Assembly (NCBI RefSeq): GCF_000380185.1
Contig: NZ_KB904747.1
Location: 186,001-250,000, forward strand
Direction: 5' to 3'
From: Thiofilum flexile DSM 14609
Lineage (GTDB): Bacteria; Pseudomonadota; Gammaproteobacteria; Thiotrichales; Thiotrichaceae
Length of the DNA: 64,000 nt
Shown: piece after piece, positions 15,375 through 61,526 of the stretch
Layout: every line of letters begins with the position of its first letter
Position numbering within the stretch: position 1 is the first letter of the stretch
The notes under the pieces: generated by a model
Database searches by the model: none
Seen by the model: only the letters and a program-made list of their open reading frames with translations
What the model was told of the DNA's origin: nothing
Made by a program: the position numbers and the translations under genes

Positions 15375-15956
15375 ATGAATAATCGTATTAAAGTCCACAG
15401 TATCGAAGTGCTCTCAGATAATTGGTATATATTACGCAAAGCGACCTTTGATTATTTACGTAATAATGGCGAATGGCAAAAGCAAATTCGTGAAGTTTAT
15501 GATCGTGGAAATGGGGCGACTATTTTATTATATAACCTTAGCCAGCAAACAGTCATTTTGACACGGCAATTTAGATTTCCTACTTATGTCAATGGATTAG
15601 TTGATGGTTTATTAATTGAAACTGCGGCAGGTTTATTAGATCAAGCGAGTCCTGAAGAGCGTATTCGTATGGAGGCCGAGGAGGAAACGGGGTATCAGGT
15701 AGGCACTATTCAAAAAGTATTTGAGGCCTATATGAGTCCGGGGTCAGTCACTGAAAAGCTCTATTTTTATATTGCCGAATACCAGCCCCATGATAAGTTA
15801 ACAACAGGTGGCGGTATTGAAAGCGAAGGGGAGGATATTGAAGTATTAGAATTACCCTTTCAACAGGCTATGCAGATGATTAGGACGGGTGAAATTCAAG
15901 ATGGTAAAACCATTATGTTATTACAGCATGCTGCTTTGACGGTATTTAAGTCGTGA
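15375..15956 (+). CDS. nudK: Nudix hydrolase, GDP-mannose pyrophosphatase type
   Basis: 193 aa, close to E. coli NudK (191) in length and sequence: [39 protein letters not shown], and [13 protein letters not shown] near the end. The Nudix box is GLLD...MEAEEETGY with the REUxEE glutamates present. NudK hydrolyses GDP-mannose and related NDP-sugars to the nucleoside monophosphate and sugar phosphate. A three-codon reading frame (ATG AAT GAA TAA, 15371-15382) overlaps the start in another frame. The next gene is convergent argH, with a branched repeat between them. Confidence 0.9.
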
Positions 15957-15965
15957 ATGATATAG

Positions 15966-16077
15966 AGCAAACATAATCGGATCTTGCTTTTGCAGTCGCT
16001 GTAAATATGTCCTTGTACGCTACAAGGCGGCATCCCTGCCGCTAAGACTGCTCCAACAAGACCCGATTACCTTTGCT
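15966..16077. repeat. Branched inverted-repeat element between nudK and argH
   Basis: 112 bp that fold as a cruciform with two inner hairpins. Outer stem: AGCAAA (15966-15971) with TTTGCT (16072-16077); TAATCGG (15974-15980) with CCGATTA (16063-16069); TCTTG (15982-15986) with CAAGA (16057-16061); GCAGTC (15992-15997) with GACTGC (16046-16051). Inner hairpins: CCTTGTA-CGC-TACAAGG (16011-16027) and GCGGCA-TCCC-TGCCGC (16027-16042). There is no reading frame. The form resembles dispersed intergenic repeats of gammaproteobacteria (REP/ERIC-like) and could also end both converging transcripts. No second copy is seen in this window. Confidence 0.7.
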
Positions 16078-16094
16078 TAAGGATTACATTTAAT

Positions 16095-17498
16095 TTATTC
16101 AGCAATCAATGCTTTAGCAATAGCTACCTGTTTACGGACTTGTTCGGGTGCAGTTCCGCCTAAATGATTACGTGCTGCTACTGAGCCTTCGAGCGTTAAC
16201 ACGGTAAATACATCATCAGTAATGACATCTGAGAAACTTTGGAGTTCTGCTAAGCTCATTTCACTCAAATCACGTCCCGTTTGTACGCCAAGCCCCACAG
16301 CTTTACCCACCACTTCATGCGCATCGCGGAAGGGCAAGCCTTTACGTACTAAGTAATCAGCTAAATCGGTGGCGGTTGAAAAGCCTTGCATCGCCGCTTT
16401 ACGCATTTTTTCTGGTTTAGTTTGCACATGCGGCATCATATCGCCAAAGGCACGTAAACAGCCCAATACGGTATCAACGGTATCAAATAGCGGTTCTTTA
16501 TCCTCTTGATTATCTTTGTTATAGGCCAGCGGTTGACCTTTCATCAGGGTTAGTAATGCCATTAAATGCCCAAATACCCGTCCACTTTTGCCCCGTACTA
16601 ATTCGGGTACATCGGGATTTTTTTTCTGCGGCATAATGGAGGAGCCGGTACAAAAACGATCAGGCAGACGAATAAAATCAAATTGTGCCGAAGTCCACAG
16701 AATCAACTCTTCAGAAAAGCGTGATAAGTGCATCAGCAATAGCGAGGCAAAGCTGGTAAATTCAATAGCAAAATCTCGATCACTCACGGCATCGAGAGAG
16801 TTACGCGTAGGACGCTCAAAGCCTAATAGCTCAGCGGTGTAGTCGCGATCAATTGGGTAGGTCGTTCCAGCGAGGGCAGCAGCACCTAAGGGCATAATGT
16901 TCACCCGTTTGCGGCAATCCATGAGACGCTCATAATCCCGCTGCAGCATCTCAAACCATGCCAGCATGTGATGACCGAAGGTAATTGGTTGGGCGACTTG
17001 TAGGTGGGTAAAGCCCGGAAGAATAGTATCGGCTTCCTGTTCCGCTACTTGGATTAGTCCGGTTTGTAGGCGGCGAATGGCATAGCCAATATGATCAATT
17101 TGATCGCGTAGCCATAGGCGAATATCGGTTGCAACCTGATCATTACGCGAGCGTCCGGTGTGCAAACGCTTGCCCGCAAGGCCGATCCGGTCGGTTAAGC
17201 GTGCCTCAACGTTCATATGTATATCTTCTAACGACACTTTCCAATCAAAGCTGCCGGCTTCAATCTCAGCTTCGATTTGGTTAAGACCGTTTAGAATAGC
17301 TTCTACATCGGTTGAGTTTAGAAGACCCACTTTACCCAACATGCGGGCGTGGGCGCGTGAACCAGCAATATCATGTTTGTACAGGCGCTGATCAAAGGTA
17401 ATGGAGGCAGTAAATTGCTCCACGAAAGCGTCGGTGGATTCGGTAAAGCGACCACCCCAAGATTGATTTTTGCTCTCATGAGATTGTGAAGTACTCAA
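16095..17498 (-). CDS. argH: Argininosuccinate lyase
   Basis: 467 aa. Splits argininosuccinate to arginine and fumarate, the last step of arginine synthesis. The signature [16 protein letters not shown] of the fumarase/aspartase superfamily, with the catalytic serine, is intact; WGGRFTEST opens the protein as in other ArgH. No ATG lies before WGGRF in frame; the start is TTG at 17498, with GAGGG 8 bases upstream. It diverges from algZ across a 258-bp AT-rich spacer, the same arrangement as in Pseudomonas and relatives. Confidence 0.95.
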
Positions 17499-60962: not shown

Positions 60963-61526
60963 AGGTTAACTCTTAACGTCAAATAATTGGGGTTTTATGA
61001 GTATAGTGCATACCTCAGAGCCTGCTCGGTGTAGGGTTATTGTTATGATTAGTGTTCAAACTATTGCATTAGCTAAGCGCTCAAGTCTAGCGAAAACCGA
61101 TATAACGCCTTAGATAACGCCCCATTCAGCTTAAGTTAAACCCCGCTTCAGCTCTTGCTTGTATAGGGCTGGTCTGATGGCGTGGAATAGGTAGTAAATA
61201 GCTTAAAAAAGCCCAGTTTTGTAAGCTGCTGGAGTAAGGAAATCGCTAAGACTATACTGAAATAAAAACCGTATTAACAGTAGGTCATATGCGTTGCAGG
61301 GTTGGGTGAATACCATGACCTGCCAACATATGAGCGATGAACGAATTAAACAAGTTACGGTCGATATTGATGCTCAAGTTATTCAGTTTGGGCTACCCTC
61401 CGCGTGGTAGCGTACAAGGCCTTGAGTCGTTCAAAAAAGCACGTTCAGTGGCAAAGAGTGCAGGTATGGAGAGTACCAAAACTTAGCCTCTGGCGTGGGT
61501 ATAATATCAAATGAGGAACTCGTTAT
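60963..61526. other. 564-bp spacer with possible gene remnant
   Basis: No intact gene longer than about 30 codons is seen. It contains a possible frameshifted small gene (61315-61486, listed separately), a short dyad AGCTTA/TAAGCT near 61200-61231, and the leader of the secreted-protein gene with a -10-like TATAAT at 61500-61505. No RNA-gene structure is evident. Confidence 0.5.
61315..61486 (+). pseudogene. Possible frameshifted small gene
   Basis: ATG at 61315 with GGTGA upstream opens 31 codons (MTCQHMSDERIKQVTVDIDA...) to a TAG at 61408. A +1 shift near 61385-61403 would continue as PPRGSVQGLESFKKARSVAK to a TAG at 61484-61486, giving about 56 residues of plausible protein-like composition. 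It is not recognised as any family. It may be a decayed gene or chance; confidence is low. Confidence 0.25.

Follow-up and report, generated by a model that had tools for sequence, protein, structure and literature searches.

We read the intergenic element at 15966-16077 as one copy of a dispersed, REP/MITE-like repeat whose core is a two-site RNA module of the CsrA/RsmA type, with putative CsrA binding, and we hold this reading with slightly better than even confidence. The element lies in a 64,000-nucleotide stretch of Thiofilum flexile DNA, the whole of which is referred to here as the window. Judged by their letters, the loops conserved in it carry ANGGA motifs of the CsrA type on the minus strand, a point that the earlier note on this DNA had overlooked. 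The features of the window copy and of the two neighbouring genes are as follows.

15966..16077, minus strand (the GGATG strand): whole element, window copy (folds and covariance-model matches).
16055..16077, minus strand: 5' outer arm of the stem, blocks 16072-16077 and 16055-16070 (fold; pairing kept by paired changes in 82 copies).
15966..15988, minus strand: 3' outer arm of the stem, blocks 15973-15988 and 15966-15971 (fold and arm pair counts).
16046..16051, minus strand: inner stem GCAGTC, pairing with GACTGC at 15992-15997 (fold and consensus structure).
16027..16042, minus strand: hairpin 1, GCGGCA-GGGA-TGCCGC (fold; covaries across species).
16031..16038, minus strand: candidate CsrA-type motif 1, CAGGGATG, intact, with GGA in the loop (sequence; column variation in 91 copies; printed consensus).
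16012..16026, minus strand: competing hairpin, part of CCTTGTA/TACAAGG (fold; conserved in the own genome, hairpin 2 alternative B).
16008..16015, minus strand: candidate CsrA-type motif 2, CAAGGACA, which differs by one base from the family CANGGAYG (sequence against the 91-copy consensus).
15998..16007, minus strand: conserved tail TATTTACAGC after motif 2, common to carriers across the class (half-motif and alignments).
15375..15956, plus strand: nudK, ending just before the element (NF011585, 244.9 bits, above cut-off).
16095..17498, minus strand: argH, convergent with nudK (TIGR00838, 646.5 bits).

The earlier note had described a branched inverted repeat, with an outer stem in four blocks around two hairpins, and this fold is present at 15966-16077 with an energy beyond chance on both strands. 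The minus strand reaches -57.3 kcal/mol (z -7.13) and the plus strand -47.1 kcal/mol (z -5.07), and for either strand 0 of 200 shuffles folded as well. The minus strand is thus the better folder, and it is also the informative one: a long outer stem, in which 16072-16077 pairs with 15966-15971 and 16055-16070 with 15973-15988, encloses two hairpins whose loops read CANGGAYG. It is at the same time the downstream sense strand of argH. Both gene names given in the earlier note were correct, NudK and ArgH lying above their NCBIfam cut-offs. As for the second hairpin drawn there, CCUUGUA/UACAAGG, the window copy still prefers it, whereas the family consensus draws GUAC-ANGGAY-GUAU instead.

The window copy is among the weaker ones of its family. 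Covariance model R2 matches it at 15994-16067 with 59.2 bits, and model R1 (at G000:C2:201971-202075) with 98.5 bits, compared to 125.7 bits for the best copy. It carries one intact and one damaged CsrA-type motif; motif 2 reads CAAGGACA and not CANGGAYG, and therefore the closing pair is lost. From its letters, this copy is probably in decay. Rfam gave no match in the window at the gathering threshold, and membership of a known Rfam family was rejected on this and on the nine element loci described below. Elsewhere in the window, a lone match to CCTTGTACGCTACAAGG with two mismatches is found at 61403-61419 on the minus strand, around which the models place no element.

The own assembly of the window comprises 3.79 Mb in 71 contigs. 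A DNA search with BLAST returned at least 40 matches (the best 40 of 109 candidates were scored), and R1, which was built from 30 copies, returned at least 130 rows (150 of 1683 candidates scored), 27 of which are opposite-strand doubles as counted from the list, leaving at least about 103 places. The core pattern GGCANGGATGCCGCCTTGTAGCGTACANGGA with up to three mismatches occurs at 86 places in the genome and its reversed control at 0. The proposal that this is a dispersed intergenic repeat of Gammaproteobacteria was thereby borne out, as it was by the named carriers in other genera described below. For alignment 80 stretches were fetched and 91 copies were used, one of them added from locus L027. 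All except one lie outside open reading frames of at least 90 amino acids (90/91), and the remaining copy lies inside a frame of 91 amino acids.

Genes were called in the own genome by simple open reading frame picks. On this basis convergent gene pairs flank 31 copies and divergent pairs 13 (p 0.0096), while between tandem genes 21 are sense and 24 antisense, with one more inside an open reading frame. There is no orientation bias to genes, and therefore about a quarter of the copies would be read only as the opposite strand; sense copies make up 52 of the 90 with a called upstream gene. A sense bias confined to copies with diverged arms was considered and rejected, the two lower identity classes holding 10 tandem sense and 7 antisense copies. 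Similarly, a replication-strand preference was rejected on the GC skew along the GGATG strand, a crude proxy with mean -0.003 and standard error 0.008.

Two weak, consensus-only tests were made on the flanks. Promoter-like scores show no excess upstream of the copies (7.95, compared to 7.73 on the mirror side), and T-runs lie beside 15 and 14 of the 91 copies on the two sides, which is no terminator excess on either. A small-RNA gene with its own promoter and terminator was rejected on these tests, as neither is in excess beside the copies. A special role of the element in ending nudK and argH, which the earlier note had considered, was not supported, as copies lie beside many genes and the T-runs show no excess on either side.

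Two variants were observed among the copies. In eight of them (L121, two in L124, L139, L147, L150, L174, L179), motif 2 is followed by an insert of some 59 bases, which consists of a GGCGC-RTCCNT-GCGCC-like hairpin followed in most by AAAAATCG-TTCCTGA-CGATTTTTT. On the opposite strand the loops of this insert again show CANGGA-like letters, and it is perhaps a nested second repeat family. Four copies of 82 bases (L112, L117, L122, L181) resemble deletions between the two CANGGATG motifs, with one hybrid motif left.

Selection on folding, suggested earlier from the window copy, is seen as covariation both in the outer arms and across species. The outer arms were compared in 82 of the 91 copies, the other nine having a shifted right arm, mostly with inserts. 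With 18 pairs per copy, 1432 of 1476 cells pair, compared to a mean of 1203 and a maximum of 1233 when the right arms were re-dealt. Both sides are changed and still paired in 182 cells, both changed and unpaired in 3, and one side changed and unpaired in 41. As in the terminal inverted repeats of MITEs, the arms pair over 18-26 positions in 81 of the 82 aligned copies. Hairpin 1 was compared in 32 copies aligned across species, where five of its seven pairs show changes on both sides. Cells changed on both sides number 54, compared to 15.5 after shuffling, and the covariation is 0.378, compared to 0.094 for shuffled and at most 0.148 for slid alignments. Thus, the stems change and the loops stay.

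A transition in one arm of a stem leaves a G-U pair on one strand and an A-C mismatch on the other, and this difference tells on which strand the fold is kept. In the 81 own-genome copies without shift, the outer arm on the GGATG strand shows 65 G-U and 9 A-C cells; without the one pair that holds 24 of the G-U cells, which may be inherited, the counts are 41 and 9. Three positions beyond the stem give 29 G-U and 41 A-C, i.e. no excess outside it. The same direction is found in other species, where the 71 copies scoring at least 12 in their arms show 44 G-U and 12 A-C; 27 of them lean to G-U and 8 to A-C (p 0.002). G-U thus lies far above A-C in two data sets, so folding of the GGATG strand has been selected. 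The test favours RNA; single-stranded DNA, where G-T pairs are also tolerated, is compatible as well.

These counts also bear on the idea that the arms are complementary through palindrome correction at the DNA level, or through inversion through the arms, with no selection on a folded strand. Double changes exceed single unpaired ones, 182 to 41, as such correction would produce, the core lies in either order with respect to the outer-arm types (23 clear cases to 7), and its orientation differs at one orthologous site. Correction would treat both strands alike and predicts equal numbers of G-U and A-C, whereas 65 to 9 and 44 to 12 were counted. We regard this explanation as very unlikely on its own, although the process may act in addition to selection on the fold.

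On the GGATG strand the core consensus is TGGAGCAGTCTTGGCGGCANGGATGCCGCCTTGTAGCGTACANGGAYGTATTCACAGCGRCTGCGG. Among its 64 columns in the 91 copies, entropy is highest, at 1.42, at the N of CANGGATG within hairpin 1; next come two columns of motif 2, the letter that follows GGA (1.40) and the N (1.29). These top three columns are N positions of CANGGANG; by chance, they would land among the two motifs' four N columns with a probability of 1e-4. The pattern by which copies were collected left both N free, which could favour variation at N; the same columns vary in the 30 copies from plain BLAST. GGA is kept in 93-100% of the 91 own-genome copies, though it is unpaired in the consensus fold. In passages of PMC6849547 and PMC6692469, the consensus for CsrA/RsmA is printed as RUACARGGAUGU from E. 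coli SELEX and as A/UCANGGANGU/A when derived from RsmE; the loops of the element, with GGA fixed and N free, match this printed consensus. One canonical csrA was found in the own genome; its match to a solved homologue of CsrA scores 98.6 bits.

In the own genome a competing fold of hairpin 2 is conserved, and it buries the GG of that hairpin. With few exceptions the second N of these copies is A or G, as pairing with T in the competing fold would require, and this pairing may explain the preference here. In other species the second N varies freely (G 52, T 22, C 11, A 8).

A structural element of gene 3' ends, i.e. an mRNA stabiliser, attenuator or REP-like DNA-bending site kept for its long stem only, would account for copies that abut gene 3' ends and prefer convergent pairs, as well as for an outer stem kept by paired changes (182 both-changed cells paired, 3 unpaired). 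It leaves unexplained the invariant GGA in two unpaired loops, the free N, the fixed spacing between the two GGA and the tail TATTYACAGC, which is conserved across the class. This alternative seems unlikely to us.

Across the class, the half-motif GTAGCGTACANGGAYGTATTYACAGCG with up to three mismatches was found in 27 of 369 genomes of the class (own genome included) and in 25 of 271 genera; its reversed control gave 0 in the same 369 genomes. Carriers among the matches listed are Marinobacter, Microbulbifer, Halomonas, Sedimenticola, Pectobacterium, Catenovulum and Saccharospirillum. Many carrier copies have outer arms that form long, nearly perfect palindromes, unrelated in sequence, and their hairpin 1 stems are unrelated too. 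The best upstream hairpin in other species has GGA in its loop in 68 of 93 copies. By a looser test 81 of the 93 have a GGA hairpin, and 74 of these 81 are spaced 21-24 nt from the second GGA.

Within the family of the window, R2 matches 11 of 60 genomes but 7 of 8 genera, i.e. a patchy distribution. At the sensitivity used, the core had no match in plasmids and phages and none in E. coli genomes; viral contigs gave one stretch with a core match. Phage or plasmid cargo was rejected at this sensitivity, the plasmids and phages giving no match. Between tandem genes in other species, 28 copies are sense and 18 antisense (p 0.18, with crude gene calls); this orientation count left out 23 edge copies and 3 that lacked flanking genes, and among the 77 copies that were counted, 19 lie inside a picked open reading frame.

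One Marinobacter site was followed in 20 genomes. It lies upstream of a gene starting with MRSHY, which we take to be aspS, and it holds the core as GGATG in 6 genomes, reversed in 6 and not at all in 8. These states need 9 changes on the gene tree. Considering this together with the two orders of the core relative to the two outer-arm types in the own genome (23 clear cases to 7), copies appear, disappear and change orientation. Inversion in place at this site was considered and is indistinguishable from re-insertion, since arm types related to one another are found repeatedly in these genomes. In one Marinobacter genome (locus L346, genome G393), an enlarged copy upstream of the MRSHY gene has extra hairpins between the usual ones, with the letters CCAAGGATGG and GCAGGAGC, and resembles a multi-site decoy RNA. 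Two Marinobacter species (L231 and L244) have the element between flanks about 74% identical on both sides, with arms almost without shared sequence, which suggests very fast turnover or replacement of the arms.

The earlier note had advised a search for a REP-associated tyrosine transposase, and this gave no support. RAYT (NF047646) has no match in the own genome; in the class it is above cut-off in 13 of 27 carriers and in 37 of 53 chosen non-carriers (p 0.087). A REP driven by RAYT was rejected on the absence of RAYT from the own genome and its lack of association with carriers in the class. Y1 transposase fragments were observed at the ends of contigs C2, C11, C23, C24, C33, C36 and C47 of the own assembly. 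Two of the Y1_Tnp matches in this genome were tested and are halves of IS200 tnpA; an IS200-type element seems to be present in multiple copies and to break the assembly. By eye, no constant target-site duplication was seen in the 91 copies, and one Marinobacter site has a possible GCCAGA repeat.

The element might instead be a non-autonomous transposable repeat, with a trans-acting transposase that recognises its hairpins as DNA single strands, GGA loops serving as recognition letters and a merely coincidental likeness to CsrA sites. About 100 copies, the patchy distribution (11/60 family genomes, 7/8 genera), empty and occupied versions of one site and the missing orientation bias to genes are all expected of such a repeat. 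Strand-specific folding would also fit a single-strand DNA transposition step, and several IS200 tnpA fragments at contig ends could point the same way. On the other side, RAYT is absent from the own genome and not associated with the element in the class, and no cognate transposase was found among RAYT and Y1_Tnp, the two families sought. Furthermore, the mean GC skew is zero along the GGATG strand, by this crude measure no replication-strand preference, and CsrA, according to the printed passages, reads loops of the pattern CANGGANG in which both N are free. We therefore consider this explanation doubtful, though it deserves to be taken seriously.

The reading as a two-site CsrA module proposes transcription, CsrA binding and a decoy effect. 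Once the GGATG strand is transcribed, the outer stem would hold two hairpins displaying ANGGA loops 21-24 nt apart, and two loops about 23 nt apart would suit the geometry of a single CsrA dimer, which has two RNA faces. Every transcript with a copy would bind CsrA at its tail (or leader), and copies on many mRNAs would add up to a distributed pool of CsrA decoys. The main difficulties for this mechanism are the absent gene-strand bias and the competing hairpin 2 fold, which buries the GG in the own genome. Against it also stand the Marinobacter site occupied either way or empty, the damaged motif in the window copy and the lack of promoter or terminator excess beside copies. A further step, which we offer tentatively and do not expect to hold in full, is that across Gammaproteobacteria a mobile, orientation-switching repeat spreads two-site CsrA modules through the chromosome, with CsrA activity set by the summed transcription of dozens of copy-bearing genes as well as by dedicated sRNAs, and with each local site switched on or off when the core flips between its arms.

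CsrA is a global regulator whose titration is attributed mainly to a small number of dedicated RNAs. If it binds the element, many genes come with a sponge for this master regulator built in. A class-wide repeat with CsrA-type loops would tie repeat load to regulation as a new kind of decoy, and REP-type repeats would gain a testable RNA function. A site that is empty in some genomes and has the core in one or the other orientation elsewhere offers a clean natural comparison.

In the titles, abstract starts and passages of the open-licence literature, no recognised description was found of the repeat or of CsrA sites in a dispersed repeat. REP/REPIN, as treated in PMC3733652, are likewise intergenic, high-copy and palindromic, and enriched downstream of genes and between convergent genes; the element agrees in its many extragenic palindromic copies (86 core copies; 90/91 outside open reading frames). 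It differs in its 105-135 bases, its two inner hairpins and conserved loop letters, the missing RAYT link and the lack of a constant GTAG/CGTC tag across the class. TTGTAGC before hairpin 2 is constant here, but its letters GTAG are replaced by CGAG, GAAG, GGAG or AGAG in other carriers. With MITEs the element shares short, non-coding sequence, long inverted ends and both empty and occupied sites, and neither a clear target duplication nor, among RAYT and Y1_Tnp, a cognate transposase was identified for it.

The decoys CsrB, CsrC, RsmX, RsmY and RsmZ carry ANGGA motifs in hairpin loops of one strand. The element resembles them in having two ANGGA loops per copy, with the loops conserved and the stems covarying. 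It differs in having two motifs and not many, in its dozens of chromosomal copies and in that no promoter or terminator signal of its own was found. When nine element loci were compared with the Rfam models for CsrB, CsrC and RsmX/Y/Z, no match appeared up to E 10, and the window had none at the gathering threshold.

The element is also similar in layout to TwoAYGGAY (RF01731), which has two hairpins with AYGGAY-type loops inside a poorly conserved external stem and has gammaproteobacterial members. The passages on this RNA in PMC4333381 and PMC2864571, where it appears as a table row in the latter, describe no repeat, whereas the element is a dispersed repeat in high copy number, in which a specific tail is conserved and the palindromic arms are very long. 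The RF01731 model had no match in the nine element loci up to E 10, nor in the window at gathering, and by this model the element is not a member. In its passage on TwoAYGGAY and Bacillaceae-1, PMC4333381 proposes both as CsrA-binding RNAs on the same kind of motif evidence, and by analogy the element would work in the way proposed there for TwoAYGGAY.
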